From a bacterium (GTDB lineage: Bacteria; Caldisericota; Caldisericia; Cryosericales; Cryosericaceae): a DNA stretch of 64,000 nt. The translations under genes were made by a program, and so were the position numbers. The notes beneath the pieces are model-generated. The model saw only the letters and a list, made by a program, of their open reading frames with translations, did not search any database and was not told the DNA's origin. Shown here piece after piece: positions 20,419 to 30,831 of the stretch; positions within the stretch are counted from its first letter, which is position 1, and each line of letters opens with the position of its first letter. The stretch lies in NCBI GenBank assembly GCA_021373025.1, contig JAJFTL010000022.1:186001-250000 (forward strand), in the 5' to 3' direction.

Positions 20419-21681
20419 TTATTGATTGTCCCTGAAGTATCGGGACGGGATTCCAAGCATGAGCCGGTACTTGGCGACGGTTCTCCGGCTGATATGAATG
20501 CCCTGTGTTTCGAGGATCACGGCGATCTGTCGGTCGCTCAGTGCTCTTGAATGCAAGGTAGAGGTTAGCAGGCGCGTCAGAGCATCTTTAGCGGGAGCTG
20601 AACTCGTTTCCCATCGGTCCAGTACCATGGCTCGCAGTCTGAAGGTTCCCCGCGGCGTCTGTACGTACTTTCGCTGTAGGGCCCGGACCATAGCTGTTCG
20701 TGACAGATTCGTGGCTTCCATCAGCTGTACCACGGGGACGCGTGATGGATGGTCTGCATGTCCGGACAGGTATGCTCCTATGGACGCTATTAACGCTTCT
20801 CCAATTCTCCGAAGCACCAACGTTCGCTCTGCTATAGCATCGTTGATCCATTTAACTCGCGTGAGTTCCAATGATACTCGCTTTCTTGCCTCCGGGTCCT
20901 CACGGGCGGAAGATATCGCAATGGGATCAATGAAGAGTCTCCATGGAGCATCGGGCACTATGCACGAAAGGCTGCCAGTCAGCGGATCTTGCTGGATGAT
21001 GATGTCTGGAACGATGGTTCTCGTCTGATCATTCAACAGGCGCTTGAGCGGGGATGGGTCAAGAAGGCTCAGGATACGCTGGAGATTCTCTGGACTGTAG
21101 TCGATGTTGTACTGCTTGAGGCAGGCTCGTATGACGCCTGGGGCCATAGCACGCTCACGTGTGCGCAGGAAGCGGGTGCAGGCGGCTATGGGAAGGTCTG
21201 GTATGACGCGAGCTATCTGAAGGGCGAATGCATTGGCGACACCAGTAGCTCCCAGTCCCGCAGGCTCAGCAGACCGGATTGCTTCTAGAGATTGTCGGAT
21301 CTGCGCTGCTGTGAAGCCGGTGGACTGCGCATAGGCAGCGACCTCCTTCCTGAAAAAGCCGTTTGCGTCGAGATCCGATACGACAAACCGTACGCAGTCA
21401 ATGAGCGAGTCATCGATCAAACCGTTATCCAGGAGCTGCTCGACAATGATATCAGCAGGATCAGAGACTTCGGGGGCTGCGACGGCATCGAAGTCCCCGT
21501 TCCAGGACTCGCCGGACGCATTTGAGACGGCGTGCTTCTCTGCGAACATGCTGTCGGCTGCAAAGCGGTCCATGAGCGTACCAAAATCGGTGATCGGCTG
21601 CTCAAGGACGAGCGCGCGCGTGGCCAACCAGGATTTCTGACGGAGACTGAGCTGTTGCCGTTGTTTCTGACTACCTTGCAT
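20419..21681 (-). CDS. rpoN: RNA polymerase sigma-54 factor RpoN (divergent N terminus)
   Basis: A 420-residue alternative sigma factor needing ATP-dependent activators. The C-terminal DNA-binding region is clear: a helix-turn-helix near VVQLMEATNLSRTAMVRALQ and the RpoN box ISRRTVAKYR at about 397-406, then GIPSR. The core-binding region (LLDPSPLKRLL, VPDIIIQQ) is also present. The N-terminal Gln/Leu-rich region I, which normally reads like LTPQLxQALxLLQ, is atypical (QKQRQQLSLRQKSWLATRALVL). ATG 21681 was chosen; it overlaps the whiA end by 11 bases. No bEBP activator gene is nearby. Confidence 0.9.
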   Translation of the reverse strand: MQGSQKQRQQLSLRQKSWLATRALVLEQPITDFGTLMDRFAADSMFAEKHAVSNASGESWNGDFDAVAAPEVSDPADIIVEQLLDNGLIDDSLIDCVRFVVSDLDANGFFRKEVAAYAQSTGFTAAQIRQSLEAIRSAEPAGLGATGVANAFALQIARVIPDLPIAACTRFLRTRERAMAPGVIRACLKQYNIDYSPENLQRILSLLDPSPLKRLLNDQTRTIVPDIIIQQDPLTGSLSCIVPDAPWRLFIDPIAISSAREDPEARKRVSLELTRVKWINDAIAERTLVLRRIGEALIASIGAYLSGHADHPSRVPVVQLMEATNLSRTAMVRALQRKYVQTPRGTFRLRAMVLDRWETSSAPAKDALTRLLTSTLHSRALSDRQIAVILETQGIHISRRTVAKYRLMLGIPSRYFRDNQ

Positions 21682-22537
21682 TACGCAGCACCTTGTTGAT
21701 GTGATATTGGATGGTGCTCTTTGAGAGGTGCCCTGGAATTTTGTTGGCAAGTTGTGACAGGGGAAGGTCAGGATACCTCAATCGAGCCTGAACAACTTCG
21801 AGCGTGCGCGAAGAAAGGCGCGAACGATCAGCGTGGTGAAAAGATACGCGCAACCGTTCAAACGCCTCAATCTCTCGTTCGAGGTTCCCAAGCTCGGCGT
21901 TCACCGATCGGTTAATCTGGCTGTCCATGTCCTTTTCAAGTTGTAGTTCCTCAAGGGACAGCAGCGAGTTTGAGGCTCCCCATGCTCCTAGCAGCGACAT
22001 GATGCCCTCTCTCGATTTGAGGTAAGTAATCTCGGACGTCCTGCGGATCTCCGAGCCATGGCCTATCCGGAGTGTTGTCAGAGATCGTTCGACCAGATGA
22101 CGTCCTACGGGCAGGGAGCAGCTGAACTCCAAGTGAGTTCCATCGACTGCAGCATATCCGGACATGATGAAGAATCCTCTTGTGAATGCGGCTGCAGCAT
22201 GTTTGCTGCGAAGGTGCCGTTCCAGAGTTGTCGGTTCGAGAGGGGGCAGCCCCGAAAACAGCTGTTGTACTTGAGCAGCCGTGAGATCGATGGTGAAATT
22301 GAGCTTATGCCCTATTCTTGAGAGCGTTGCCTGTTCTGGGTTCCAGTTGGCAAGGGCCATAGAGGAAAGAGTCAGGAGATAGCGTATAATCAGCGGACTT
22401 TTGGATGTGAAGGAAATCGAAAGAGCGCCTCCATGCCTCAACACCAGCGAGCTTCCACCATAGAGAGCTCCCAACAGTTCATAGACCGGATAGTCCGAGT
22501 GTAGGCTTGCCAACTCTTGTTTCAGAAAATCCATCAT
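21671..22537 (-). CDS. whiA: DNA-binding regulator WhiA (LAGLIDADG-like plus HTH)
   Basis: A 288-residue protein of the WhiA family: an N-terminal region with the homing-endonuclease-like fold that has lost endonuclease residues (about 1-85 and 90-190, with the GGSSLVLRHGGALSIS strand) and a C-terminal helix-turn-helix (LSQLANKIPGHLSKSTIQYHINKVLR). In Actinobacteria it drives sporulation; in Firmicutes it affects division and metabolism. It is the third gene of the conserved rapZ-yvcK-whiA cluster, ten bases after yvcK. Confidence 0.9.
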   Translation of the reverse strand: MMDFLKQELASLHSDYPVYELLGALYGGSSLVLRHGGALSISFTSKSPLIIRYLLTLSSMALANWNPEQATLSRIGHKLNFTIDLTAAQVQQLFSGLPPLEPTTLERHLRSKHAAAAFTRGFFIMSGYAAVDGTHLEFSCSLPVGRHLVERSLTTLRIGHGSEIRRTSEITYLKSREGIMSLLGAWGASNSLLSLEELQLEKDMDSQINRSVNAELGNLEREIEAFERLRVSFHHADRSRLSSRTLEVVQARLRYPDLPLSQLANKIPGHLSKSTIQYHINKVLRNAR

Positions 22538-26351: not shown

Positions 26352-27593
26352 CTAAAAGCCCTCTTCGATCGCCTGTTCCACTGCGTCCATGCGCGGGGGT
26401 ATCGACATGCTGATGCCCTTGACTTTGAGGGCGTTCTGAATGTCTTTCAGTCCATTCCCGGTTATGAGTACCACGATGCGGTCCTCTGGGTGGAGAACAT
26501 TTCCGGCTAGCTTGCGCAGAGCTGCCACGGAAGCCGCTGCCGCTGGTTCGGCGAAGATCCCCTCGTTCCTGCCGAGGAAGCCGAGAGCATCGATGATCTC
26601 GTCGTCTGACACCGTAATCGCCAGCCCATCGGTATCCTTGATGTCACGCAACGCCATGAGATGATTTCGTGGAATACCCGCAACGATACTATCAGCACAC
26701 GATGCCGGGTGTTCAAGGTACTCGATGGGCTCTCCCGAGATGACCGCACGCGCAATCGGCGCGCACCCCTCAGCCTGGACTGCAATGAGCTGGGGAATGT
26801 GACGAATGAGTCCGAGTGCGAGCAGGTCACGAAATCCCTTCGCAACGCCCGAGATGATGCACCCATCGCCGACGGGAACAATGACCTTGTCCGGCTCCTC
26901 GAAATTGAGCTGCTCCGCGATCTCCAGCGCTACCGTTTTCTTTCCCTCGACCATATAGGGATTGAAAGCAGTGTTTCGGTTGTACCATCCAAAGCGCTCT
27001 GTTGCTTCGACGCACAGATCGAATGCTTGGTCATAGTTGCCAAGCACAAGAAACAGGTGGCTCCCAAAAACTTGCAGCTGTGCGATCTTACCCGCAGGAG
27101 CCGAAGCCGGCACGAAAATGTAGGCATCAAGGCCGGCATTTGCGGCAAGGCCGGCAAGGCTTGAGCCCGCATTTCCTGTGGTCGCAGCTGTGAGGACGTG
27201 CTTGTCCAGCTCTGTTGCCTTGGCGATTGCAATGGCGGATGCCCTGTCTTTCAGCGAAGCAGTCGGGTTGCGTCCGTCGTCCTTGAACCAGACATGGTCC
27301 AATCCGAGCGTCGGGCCTATGCGCCGACTCTTGTACAGAGGGGTCCATCCAATTTGCAGCGTCAGCGAAGCGGGGCGCTGATCGATGGGAAGCAACGGGA
27401 GATATCGCCACATGGATAGGTCCCGGTTTCCCTCGAGCGTTTCTCTTGTCAGGAGGGGCCGAATACGGTCATAGTCGTACAGAACTTCAAGAATCCCGTC
27501 GTTTCCACATATTGGGCACGTGTCGCGAACTTCCGAGGGGTCGTACTCTGTACCGCATTTCATACACCGTAGTCGCATTACTGAAGACATCAT
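26352..27593 (-). CDS. Threonine-synthase-like PLP enzyme (fold type II), predicted lyase of the YgeY/YgeW cluster
   Basis: A 413-residue PLP enzyme. A zinc-ribbon-like N terminus has C10, C13, C26, C29 (CMKCG, CPICG). The PLP lysine is K115 in NPTASLKDRAS (threonine synthases usually read PTGSFKDR), the phosphate-binding loop is TTGNAGSS (about 140-147), and the C-terminal domain has GNGLKD. By homology this is threonine synthase (ThrC). However no hom or thrB gene is near; the gene is last in a run with ygeY, ygeW and carbamate kinase. In E. coli that place is held by ygeX, a 2,3-diaminopropionate ammonia-lyase of the same fold type, so a beta-eliminating lyase role is equally possible. Confidence 0.8.
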   Translation of the reverse strand: MMSSVMRLRCMKCGTEYDPSEVRDTCPICGNDGILEVLYDYDRIRPLLTRETLEGNRDLSMWRYLPLLPIDQRPASLTLQIGWTPLYKSRRIGPTLGLDHVWFKDDGRNPTASLKDRASAIAIAKATELDKHVLTAATTGNAGSSLAGLAANAGLDAYIFVPASAPAGKIAQLQVFGSHLFLVLGNYDQAFDLCVEATERFGWYNRNTAFNPYMVEGKKTVALEIAEQLNFEEPDKVIVPVGDGCIISGVAKGFRDLLALGLIRHIPQLIAVQAEGCAPIARAVISGEPIEYLEHPASCADSIVAGIPRNHLMALRDIKDTDGLAITVSDDEIIDALGFLGRNEGIFAEPAAAASVAALRKLAGNVLHPEDRIVVLITGNGLKDIQNALKVKGISMSIPPRMDAVEQAIEEGF

Positions 27594-27608
27594 ACCTCCT
27601 TAGCAAAA

Positions 27609-27638
27609 GGGCGGGAGAGGCTGCTGCCTCACCCGCCC
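27609..27638 (-). terminator. Strong hairpin terminator/attenuator between arcC and the lyase gene
   Basis: On the minus strand GGGCGGG pairs with CCCGCCC, with an inner GAGGC/GCCTC extension and a small loop, followed by TTTT and then the ribosome site of the downstream gene. Confidence 0.7.
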
Positions 27639-27668
27639 CGGGGTCATGTGCTGCCAATGTGCGGCAAG

Positions 27669-28625
27669 CTAGCCGCGGACGACCCTGGTTCCCGTCTGGC
27701 CAGCGATGGCGCGTTCAAGTGATTCCGGATTTGTGATAAGTGCCTCAGTGCCTCCATGCTCAAGAAAAGCGATGACTGCCTCGATCTTGGGAAGCATGGA
27801 GCCCTTTGCAAACTGTCCTTGCTCTATGTATTCCTTTGCCTCCCGGACAGACATGCGGTCGATGCCCTGTTGACTGGGCTTGTTGTAGTTAATGTAGACT
27901 CGTTCGACGGCAGTGCTAATGATGAAGAGATCGGCATGGAGACTGGTCGCCAGCAGACTCGTGGCATGGTCCTTGTCGATGACCGCTGGCACGCCAGCAA
28001 GATTGCCGTGTGCGTCCTTGACGACAGGGATTCCTCCACCGCCTGCTGCGACAACTATAAAGCCCAGGCCAACAAGAGCCTTAATGGCGTCCAGCTCAAC
28101 AACCTCTATAGGCATGGGCGAAGCAACAACTCTTCTCCATCCCCGCCCGGCATCCTCGACAACATTCCAGCCTTCCCTGGCGACTTTCTCATCGATATCA
28201 TGCTTGCTGTAGAAAGATCCGACGGGCTTCTGGGGATGTGCAAACGCAGGGTCATTACGATCGACCAGGACCTGAGTCACCACGGTTACGGCCTGTTTTG
28301 CAATGCCCCGCCTGAGGAATTCATTGTGCAGTGCCTGCTGGATCTGATATCCGACCGCGCCCTGGGTGTCCGCTCCGCACGAATCCAGAGGAACCGGGTG
28401 CAGTCCAGCAGCTTTTTCCGCTATTTCCGACCGCAGCAGGATGAACCCTACCTGGGGGCCATTCCCATGCGTAATAACAACGTTGTAGTCCTGTTCCACC
28501 AAGCCGGCGATGTGCCGTGCAGTCTCGACGATGGCGTCATACTGGTCAGCCACGCTCTTGTGTTCTTCGTCCTTGATCAGCGAGTTTCCACCAATTGCAA
28601 TGACGGCTACTTTGGGCATGTGCAT
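27669..28625 (-). CDS. arcC: Carbamate kinase
   Basis: A 318-residue amino-acid-kinase-fold enzyme that makes ATP from carbamoyl phosphate and ADP. Visible landmarks are the start VAVIAIGGNSLI (about 5-16), THGNGPQVG (about 53-61), the VGYQIQQAL segment, and VVAAGGGGIPVV near 208-219. ATG 28625 has an AGGAGATC ribosome site. It lies 23 bases after ygeW in the same direction. No arginine deiminase is nearby, so the carbamoyl phosphate probably comes from the YgeW-type carbamoyltransferase running in the phosphorolytic direction. Confidence 0.94.
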   Translation of the reverse strand: MHMPKVAVIAIGGNSLIKDEEHKSVADQYDAIVETARHIAGLVEQDYNVVITHGNGPQVGFILLRSEIAEKAAGLHPVPLDSCGADTQGAVGYQIQQALHNEFLRRGIAKQAVTVVTQVLVDRNDPAFAHPQKPVGSFYSKHDIDEKVAREGWNVVEDAGRGWRRVVASPMPIEVVELDAIKALVGLGFIVVAAGGGGIPVVKDAHGNLAGVPAVIDKDHATSLLATSLHADLFIISTAVERVYINYNKPSQQGIDRMSVREAKEYIEQGQFAKGSMLPKIEAVIAFLEHGGTEALITNPESLERAIAGQTGTRVVRG

Positions 28626-28648
28626 TGATCTCCTGTCCGGTGTACCGG

Positions 28649-29629
28649 TTACATGGTAAGCGCAAGAATCGCTTTGACGGTGTGTAGCCTGTTCTCGGCC
28701 TCATCATACACAACCGAATGCGGTCCGTCGATGACTGCGTTTGTCACCTCATATTCGCGGTCGGCAGGAAGCGGATGCATGTAAATGGCCGAATTGCTCG
28801 CCAGCTCCATCCGCCGTTGGTCCATGATCCAGCTGGTGTACTTTTTCGCGATGTCCTGAGACTCCTTGAGGTCCCTGGTGGTCATGAAGCAGCCCCATGA
28901 CTTGGCTTCGACAATATCAGCTCCCTCCAGTGCAGCGTCCATATCGTTTGTCACTTCAAACTTGACGCCTGCAGCTTGAGCGTTCTGGCGGGCAATACCA
29001 AGTGCCTCAGGTTGCAGTGAGAATTCAGGCGGCATGGCGAGCGTGACGTCCATACCAAACCGCGGCATCACCATGATGGAGCCCTGAGCACAAGCCAGTG
29101 GTTTTGCATAGCTGGGGGCATAAGCCCAGGACATGACGAATTTGCGGCCCCGGACCTCGTTGTGAAACTTTTCTTTGATCGTCATAATGTCAGCCATCAT
29201 CTGGCATGGGTGATCAAAGTCCGATTCAAGCGAGATGACAGGAATATCCGCGTACTTGGCAATGCTGGTCATGTACTTGTGCCCTACGCCGAGGTAGATG
29301 TCGTCGCGGATGGCGATTCCATGACCGTAGCGTGATAGGATGATGCCCATCTCTTTCTCCGTGTCACCGTGGGAAATCTGTACTGCTTCTTCAGTCAGAT
29401 AGTGTGCATGTCCGCCAAGCTGGGTCATAGCTGCCTCAGTGGAATTGCGAGTGCGAGTGGACTTGTCCTTGAACAGCATGAACAGTGTCTTGTCTTCGAG
29501 CAGGTGATGGCGAATGCCCAACGCCTTCTGCTTCTTAAGATCAAACGCCACATCAAGAAGCATCTCAAGTTCTTCGGTCGTCCAGTCATTGGTGGACAGG
29601 AAGTCCCTGCCCTTCATTCTGGTGTTCAT
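28649..29629 (-). CDS. ygeW: YgeW-like knotted carbamoyltransferase
   Basis: A 326-residue aspartate/ornithine carbamoyltransferase-fold protein. The carbamoyl-phosphate loop reads STRTR (residues 57-61), DHPCQ follows at 139-143, and the amino-acid-side motif is HPLP (285-288), as in aspartate carbamoyltransferases; ornithine carbamoyltransferases have HCLP. The stretch AIRDDIYLGVGHKYM and the WAYAPSYAKPL segment closely resemble E. coli YgeW, a carbamoyltransferase without known ornithine or aspartate activity, but about 70 residues are missing relative to it. Stop and start overlap ygeY by four bases (ATGA). Together with arcC it should yield ATP from a ureido compound. Confidence 0.88.
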   Translation of the reverse strand: MNTRMKGRDFLSTNDWTTEELEMLLDVAFDLKKQKALGIRHHLLEDKTLFMLFKDKSTRTRNSTEAAMTQLGGHAHYLTEEAVQISHGDTEKEMGIILSRYGHGIAIRDDIYLGVGHKYMTSIAKYADIPVISLESDFDHPCQMMADIMTIKEKFHNEVRGRKFVMSWAYAPSYAKPLACAQGSIMVMPRFGMDVTLAMPPEFSLQPEALGIARQNAQAAGVKFEVTNDMDAALEGADIVEAKSWGCFMTTRDLKESQDIAKKYTSWIMDQRRMELASNSAIYMHPLPADREYEVTNAVIDGPHSVVYDEAENRLHTVKAILALTM

Positions 29630-30831
29630 CGTAGTTCAACCTCCTTGGCAAGCTTCGACGGGAGCAGGGCATAGAAGCGTTCCGCTTCATACAGGTCGCT
29701 GATGCGGACATACTCGTTGGTGGCATGGGCAAGCCATTCATCGCCAGGGCCGAATCCAATGCAGGGGATGTTGAACCGCCCCATGAAAGCAACGCCGTTT
29801 GTCGAAAAAGTCCAGCGCGAGATCCTGGGTGTCTTGCCACGCGCCTCTGTAGCAGCATCAACACCAGCTTTCACGAGAGGATGGTTCTCATCAAGCACCC
29901 ATGTTGGGAAGTACTTCTCTTGCCTGACGTGCAGCCCTGTCCAGCTGGTATCTTCGAACTCTGTCAGCTCAACAGTCGTATGCTCAGGGTCGTACACGGC
30001 ACCACGGAACTCTGCGAGTACAGTGTCTTTTGTCTCGCCGGTCGTAATGCGCCGATCGATGTAGATAGTGCTCTCGTAGGGAACTGAGTTGATCGAAGGC
30101 GCCTTGCTCTCAATGATACTGACCACTGCCGTACCCTTGCCCAGGAAGGGATCATCCTTGAAGGTCTCGGTGAGCTTCTCAATGTTCAATACTGTCCTGG
30201 CCATTTTCGTGATCGCATTGTCGCCCTTGTCCGGGTGGGCCGCATGGGCAGACGTCCCCGTCGTTGTGATCTTGAGTTCGACACGGCCGCGCTGACCACG
30301 ATAAACATCGAGGCTGGTCGGTTCGCACAGGACAACAAAATCGGGCCTGAAACCTTCCTTTTCGATCATGTGGACCGAGGAAAGTCCATCGCAGGTCTCC
30401 TCAAGCACCGTACCAGAGATGTAGAGGGAGAAGCCATCGAGCAGGCCGAGCTGCTTTGCTATGGAGGCGCCATAGACCATGGAAGACATGGCTGCCTTTT
30501 CATCGCTCGACCCCCGTCCATACAGCAGGTTGCCCTCAACGACCGCAGCAAATGGATCCATTCGCCAGTTCTCTCTGTCTTCGGCCCAGACAGTATCGAG
30601 ATGAGCATCATAGAGGATCTTGCGAGGTCCATTGCCTACCCTTCCGAGGATGTTGCCAATCCCATCTATGGTTACCTCATCAAAGTCAAGAGCCTGCATT
30701 TTGGCCTTGATGAGCATGACCAGGTTTTTTTCCTCCGTCGAATAGCTGCGCGTCTTGATAATGTCCTGGGCAAACTCCAGGATTTCGTGCTCGTACGTAC
30801 GTGCCAGTGTTTCGAACGCTTCAGTTGTCAC
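29626..30831 (-). CDS. ygeY: YgeY-like M20 family metallohydrolase
   Basis: A 401-residue di-zinc hydrolase of the M20 (dapE/argE) class, matching the YgeY type (TIGR03526, 'putative selenium metabolism hydrolase') in length and motifs. The first metal site is H77-x-D79 (DAHLDTVW), the bridging Asp and catalytic region are in GRGSSDEKAAM near 106-116, and the catalytic Glu pair EE is at 144-145. The GTG start lacks a strong ribosome site. It is the first gene of the ygeY-ygeW-arcC-lyase run. In E. coli YgeY is needed in purine-derived ureide breakdown; the substrate here is unknown. Confidence 0.88.
   Translation of the reverse strand: MTTEAFETLARTYEHEILEFAQDIIKTRSYSTEEKNLVMLIKAKMQALDFDEVTIDGIGNILGRVGNGPRKILYDAHLDTVWAEDRENWRMDPFAAVVEGNLLYGRGSSDEKAAMSSMVYGASIAKQLGLLDGFSLYISGTVLEETCDGLSSVHMIEKEGFRPDFVVLCEPTSLDVYRGQRGRVELKITTTGTSAHAAHPDKGDNAITKMARTVLNIEKLTETFKDDPFLGKGTAVVSIIESKAPSINSVPYESTIYIDRRITTGETKDTVLAEFRGAVYDPEHTTVELTEFEDTSWTGLHVRQEKYFPTWVLDENHPLVKAGVDAATEARGKTPRISRWTFSTNGVAFMGRFNIPCIGFGPGDEWLAHATNEYVRISDLYEAERFYALLPSKLAKEVELR

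Follow-up and report, generated by a model that had tools for sequence, protein, structure and literature searches.

A YgeY-YgeW-carbamate kinase cluster with a threonine synthase-like enzyme in a Cryosericaceae genome: a probable YgeX-less variant of the reductive purine/urate pathway

Introduction

A stretch of 64,000 nucleotides (hereafter the window; GenBank assembly GCA_021373025.1, contig JAJFTL010000022.1, positions 186,001 to 250,000) from a bacterium of the Cryosericaceae encodes a YgeY-family metallohydrolase, a YgeW-group transcarbamylase, the carbamate kinase ArcC and a protein resembling threonine synthase (ThrC), a pyridoxal phosphate (PLP) enzyme. What does such a cluster degrade, and what would a threonine synthase-like enzyme do in it? 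It was concluded that the cluster is probably the lower half of the anaerobic reductive purine/urate pathway in a variant without YgeX, in which the window ThrC-like protein and its family (ThrCl), together with a second PLP enzyme (PLP25), would use diaminopropionate. This reading rests on which genes are present and how they are ordered in relatives, on co-occurrence and phylogeny, and on the loss of threonine-synthase substrate residues. The source genome (G000) is 1.6 Mb in 64 contigs and 97.9% complete.

Anaerobic breakdown of urate was elucidated as recently as 2025, with YgeX assigned as the enzyme that ends it (PMC12507026). The chemistry of E. coli XdhD, YgfK, SsnA, HyuA, YgeW, YgeY and YgeX is established: YgeW removes one ureido group by phosphorolysis, the second is hydrolysed by YgeY, and pyruvate is formed by YgeX. 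The genes xdhD-ygfM, ygfK, ssnA, hyuA, ygeW, yqeA, ygeY and ygeX form a cluster (PMC12507026), and the order in which the ureido groups are cleaved is disputed (PMC12990295). In the published neighbourhood map, YgeX was represented by PF00291 (PMC12507026), a broad domain to which ThrCl and PLP25 belong as well, so that the map cannot separate the three.

Results

ThrCl is a zinc-ribbon PLP enzyme of 413 amino acids encoded at 26352..27593 on the minus strand, as established by family scans, alignment, tree and structural model. The protein passed the cut-offs of two threonine synthase families (PRK08197, 310 against 303; TIGR00260, 200 against 167), and threonine synthases were its nearest solved structures both by sequence (32-36% identity) and by fold (model pLDDT of 92). 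The PLP-lysine motif and the zinc ribbon were likewise shared with ThrC, the ribbon cysteines C10, C13, C26 and C29 being invariant in 21 close orthologues. The fold searches with ThrCl and PLP25 returned the expected relatives only (ThrC and the CysK/CBS type, respectively) and gave no hint of a substrate. Among named records, those nearest to the ThrCl protein came from Caldiserica bacteria and were 83% and 76% identical to it.

These likenesses would agree with an ordinary threonine synthase that lies beside YgeY-YgeW-ArcC by chance; however, this explanation was rejected as very improbable. A true thrC was found on contig C25 of the source genome, where it overlaps the homoserine dehydrogenase gene (hom) by 4 bases and encodes the usual threonine synthase motifs STGNT and NSxNPxRxEGQKT, and thrB was located on contig C51. 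Because the genome has this separate hom-thrC operon and a thrB, ThrCl is not its threonine synthase. The sequence-only reading had remarked that no hom or thrB was near; this holds at the locus but not for the genome, in which both are encoded elsewhere and ThrCl is not the sole ThrC. A third ThrC-like paralogue was seen at L002:1414-2673 (contig C57), beside a gene of the fumarylacetoacetate hydrolase family.

The residues of the substrate site pointed in the same direction. ThrCl A142, A209, M214 and D243 aligned with T88, S155, R160 and N188 of the Thermus thermophilus threonine synthase, which we take to be the phosphate ligands seen in a substrate-analogue structure, although a literature search gave no confirming paper. 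In an alignment of 79 ThrCl sequences, made of the window protein and the proteins of the scan loci described below, these four positions were substituted throughout, by A, by A or G, by L, M or T, and by D, respectively. Position 142 was always A, 243 always D and 206 always R, while 214 was never R. The hom-linked ThrC of the source genome keeps T, S, R and N. In the tree of PLP enzymes, ThrCl formed a single clade (support 96/96) apart from ThrC, whose rows were long-branched, and from YgeX and PLP25. Threonine synthase family scores would mis-name ThrCl.

Further, ThrCl was sought in 84,980 species genomes, giving at least 581 confirmed relatives, among which true threonine synthases may be present. 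The counts for ThrCl loci refer to the best 80 of these at least 581 loci and the genome-wide counts for ThrCl genomes to 50 of their genomes. The 80 loci spanned Atribacterota, Chloroflexota, Treponema, Synergistota, Bacillota, Riflebacteria and others. SsnA was found in 41 of the 50 genomes against 1 of 14 control genomes, where the 50 had been chosen for carrying ThrCl and the 14, the only comparison for SsnA, were unmatched. PLP25, which in the source genome is a protein of 490 amino acids (L004:1180-2652, contig C51), was present in 48 of the 50. It resembles PLP enzymes of the CysK/CBS type and has additions at both termini; it often adjoins ThrCl (in many of the loci L177-L254), and in family f3 of the window's class it follows a PHP-domain gene. 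The fetched flanks of the 80 loci held PLP25 in 45 cases, a transcarbamylase in 35, ArcC in 29, YgeY in 17, an XDH-family gene in 16, SsnA in 14 and YgeX in 2. At two Clostridiales loci (L200 and L216) PLP25-ThrCl was flanked by ArcC-YgeW-YgeY on one side and by SsnA-HyuA on the other, and none of the labelled genes was a YgeX.

The gene-order search proposed by the sequence-only reading was informative in relatives of the organism. Two genomes (G016 and G043) carried a single directional run of SsnA, adenine deaminase (Ade), HyuA, a metallo-beta-lactamase-fold (MBL) protein, YgeY, YgeW, ArcC, a BMP/ABC transporter and ThrCl, with XDH subunits encoded divergently upstream. The same run was observed in G041 up to the transporter, with ThrCl after a transporter on a separate contig. 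The main contig of G046 starts at HyuA and continues to the transporter and ThrCl, and its XDH-SsnA-Ade genes are on another contig. In the genomes that are presumably C. exile-type, G028 among them, ThrCl accompanied SsnA-Ade-HyuA and the transporter, and YgeW-YgeY-ArcC lay elsewhere. A gene beside YgeW in one of these genomes was at first guessed to be a molybdenum hydroxylase and was dropped, as it scores as alanyl-tRNA synthetase. Families f4-f6 of the class were without ThrCl and also without XDH and SsnA above the cut-off. The membership of the cluster in the urate pathway is therefore well supported by context. The MBL gene (L037:7388-8194) stands between HyuA and either YgeY or the transcarbamylases in the urate clusters of family f3.

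The upstream genes of the pathway were also present in the source genome. SsnA on contig C20 passed the NF005540 cut-off (463.4 bits against 444) and fell below that of TIGR03314 (441.3 against 455.5). XDH-family molybdenum hydroxylase genes, XdhBCA among them, stood at two loci, on contigs C12 and C36. A PreA-type reductase (392 bits, cut-off 335) was found on C36 beside a PydX-like flavoprotein. On contig C22 Ade adjoins a HyuA/allantoinase-type hydrolase, which scored 389 with the allantoinase model (cut-off 358) and 250 with the D-hydantoinase model (cut-off 393). None of the four PALP proteins of the genome matched a diaminopropionate ammonia-lyase (YgeX) model among the families shown. 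The surroundings of SsnA in the window's genus, namely gyrase and pyruvate-ferredoxin-type oxidoreductase genes, were uninformative, and a literature search for Caldisericum and uric acid found nothing.

The four genes of the cluster were confirmed as minus-strand open reading frames. The YgeY-family M20 metallohydrolase (29626..30831, minus strand, 401 amino acids) scored 489.9 bits with NF009555 (cut-off 321) and 470.5 with TIGR03526 (cut-off 321.5); its predicted role is hydrolysis of the ureido group that is left. ArcC (27669..28625, minus strand, 318 amino acids) scored 376.0 bits with TIGR00746 (cut-off 358.25). The transcarbamylase (28649..29629, minus strand, 326 amino acids, motifs HPLPADR and WAYAPSYAKP) matched the OTC, AOTC and YgeW models and passed no curated cut-off, its score with the YgeW model TIGR03316 being 213 against 500. 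Its identity as a short-form YgeW-group enzyme was given by the tree and the motif alignment: it fell inside a 19-row clade with E. coli YgeW (97/97) which excluded E. coli ArgI and PyrB and the genome's own OTC, its nearer join to E. coli YgeW had a support of 84/78, and the segment WAYxPSxxKP was common to both. It had earlier been described as short and as having HPLP rather than HCLP. Both remarks are correct; however, HPLP is not diagnostic and was no longer taken to hint at a new substrate, as orthologues 68-73% identical have HCLP.

The transcarbamylase and the carbamate kinase might instead run biosynthetically, so as to make carbamoyl phosphate and carbamoylate an amino acid, and transcarbamylase equilibria in vitro do favour carbamoylation (PMC4016543). 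The source genome, however, already encodes another OTC-like and a PyrB-like protein and the gene context is catabolic, so that this direction is the most improbable of those considered.

As had been read from the letters, the YgeY and transcarbamylase genes overlap by 4 bases, 23 bases separate the latter from arcC, and a hairpin precedes the ThrC-like gene. The hairpin (27609..27638, minus strand), a strong GC-rich stem followed by TTTT and identified by sequence and fold score, is terminator- or attenuator-like and sits between arcC and the ThrCl start. The region folds with -41.1 kcal/mol (z = -3.75), and the hairpin was absent from the output of a simple terminator scan. Elsewhere in the window, an open reading frame at 20419-21750 has the C-terminus SRRTVAKYRLMLGIPSRY, which resembles an RpoN box by eye only; it is flanked by a WhiA-like and a glyceraldehyde-3-phosphate-dehydrogenase-like open reading frame.

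The distribution of YgeY revealed an exchange of cassettes. Of the 61 genomes searched, 14 had a YgeY orthologue of at least 60% identity, and these were precisely the genomes with a transcarbamylase of the window type; the orthologues of the 13 relatives were 60-89% identical, and in G014 YgeY was represented only by a 33-residue fragment at a contig end. Among the loci inspected, 11 genomes had YgeY and a single transcarbamylase with WAYxxSxxKP...HxLPADR, and in 16 genomes lacking YgeY there was a second transcarbamylase, marked by HPMP and WG(Y/H)xxxxRS, mostly beside a first and usually beside ArcC (loci L050, L051, L053-L056, L058-L060, L062, L063 and L070). No genome among these loci had both YgeY and the HPMP-type enzyme, which formed its own clade (100/100). 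In the window's genus either YgeY-YgeW-ArcC or transcarbamylase-ArcC-transcarbamylase occupied the same spot, between serS-ThrCl and a penicillin-binding-protein gene, and ThrCl was retained beside serS at 82-84% identity with either cassette.

On the simplest reading, the second transcarbamylase would do the job of YgeY with phosphate, thus saving a second carbamoyl phosphate, and the swap agrees with a variant of the pathway that takes off both ureido groups by phosphorolysis. ThrCl probably acts on a product that the two cassettes have in common, since it is kept with both.

Discussion

We proposed the following sequence, in which the homologues found here presumably share the substrates of the E. 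coli enzymes. The XdhABC molybdenum hydroxylase and the PreA-type reductase would dearomatise the purine, and SsnA and HyuA would open the rings to give 2,3-diureidopropionate. The YgeW-type transcarbamylase would then take off one carbamoyl group with phosphate, ArcC would convert the carbamoyl phosphate to ATP, and YgeY would hydrolyse the other ureido group to leave 2,3-diaminopropionate. Finally, ThrCl with PLP25 may use the diaminopropionate, most likely by removal of the beta-amino group to form pyruvate or serine and ammonia. For ThrCl the likeliest role is to act on 2,3-diaminopropionate, and the substrate and product of both PLP enzymes are putative, as is the elimination of ammonia by ThrCl that the sequence-only reading put forward. 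Gene context bore out its suggestion of a module for ureides and diaminopropionate, in which phosphorolysis gives carbamoyl phosphate and ArcC makes ATP. The accompanying claim that a ThrC-like enzyme takes the place of YgeX stood in so far as ThrCl is a PLP enzyme other than threonine synthase; plain replacement is only one reading, given the PLP25 partner and the genomes that retain YgeX.

Several observations weigh against the proposed pathway. YgeX was kept in 12 of the 50 ThrCl genomes, in two of them (Diplocloster) at the same locus; ThrCl is not a strict substitute, and strict mutual exclusion of the two was rejected. In nine of the 50 genomes SsnA was not matched at the cut-off applied. 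With PLP25 in 48 of the 50, either PLP enzyme may carry out a given step, and the transcarbamylase cassette of family f2 holds PLP25, not ThrCl. In the source genome the upstream genes are unlinked to the cluster, and the HyuA homologue scores as an allantoinase, not a D-hydantoinase. Lastly, Acetomicrobium- and Synergistota-type loci (L206, L243 and L244) have the order M20 peptidase-ThrCl-SHMT-type gene-PLP25, which suggests a link to serine and glycine.

The last observation bears on a different role for the pair, in which ThrCl and PLP25 would perform a separate serine/glycine/threonine-type step, for example from diaminopropionate or aminoacrylate to serine for SHMT, rather than beta-elimination. 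ThrC chemistry is a water-adding replacement, Diplocloster has YgeX as well, and five loci hold an SHMT homologue, which makes a serine/glycine route possible. However, these are only 5 of the 80 loci. As YgeX is absent from most ThrCl genomes, in which diaminopropionate would need another remover, its elimination is the favoured reaction. A separate step of this type was considered rather unlikely.

It is somewhat less likely still that the module acts on other ureido or carbamoyl amino acids, derived from hydantoins, pyrimidines or peptides, and that the urate genes are just frequent neighbours. The families of YgeY, the transcarbamylases and the hydantoinases are broad, PreA has a further use in pyrimidine reduction, and both the allantoinase score and the lack of linkage between the source-genome cluster and SsnA would agree with such a function. 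Against it stand the presence of SsnA, Ade and the BMP-type transporter in the same run in relatives and the frequency of SsnA among ThrCl genomes.

The proposed purine/urate pathway shares with the E. coli cluster SsnA, a transcarbamylase of the YgeW group, YgeY, carbamate kinase and an enzyme of the XDH family, and has a HyuA/allantoinase-type hydrolase in the place of HyuA. It differs in having ThrCl and PLP25 with no YgeX found, a shorter transcarbamylase, genes scattered over the genome and a reductase of the PreA type. The latter (PreA/DHO_dh type) resembles UacX of the C. difficile UacX/UacY variant, in which UacY, of the D-aminoacylase family, replaces YgeW and YqeA (PMC12507026), whereas some relatives here have a second transcarbamylase where YgeY is missing. 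ThrCl and YgeX belong to the PALP superfamily and hold the same place in the pathway order, but they fall in separate clades (100/99) and are not orthologous. The ureidoglycine carbamoyltransferase module of Rubrobacter likewise combines a catabolic transcarbamylase with carbamate kinase in purine breakdown, although it belongs to the oxidative allantoate route and uses another transcarbamylase subgroup (PMC4016543).

The pairing with PLP25 and the exchange of YgeY for a transcarbamylase are new points beyond the sequence-only reading. It was tentatively proposed, with less confidence than the pathway itself, that a widespread and undescribed branch of urate degradation ends in the ThrCl and PLP25 pair instead of YgeX, with a sub-variant that has no YgeY, two transcarbamylases and two carbamoyl phosphates. 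If this is true, the final enzyme is mis-named threonine synthase in databases across many phyla, with Treponema and gut Clostridia among the groups affected. The two-transcarbamylase sub-variant would give two ATP per diureidopropionate, and the swap makes energy yield against pathway variant directly testable. Small uncultured anaerobes would then gain a clear purine-based energy source.

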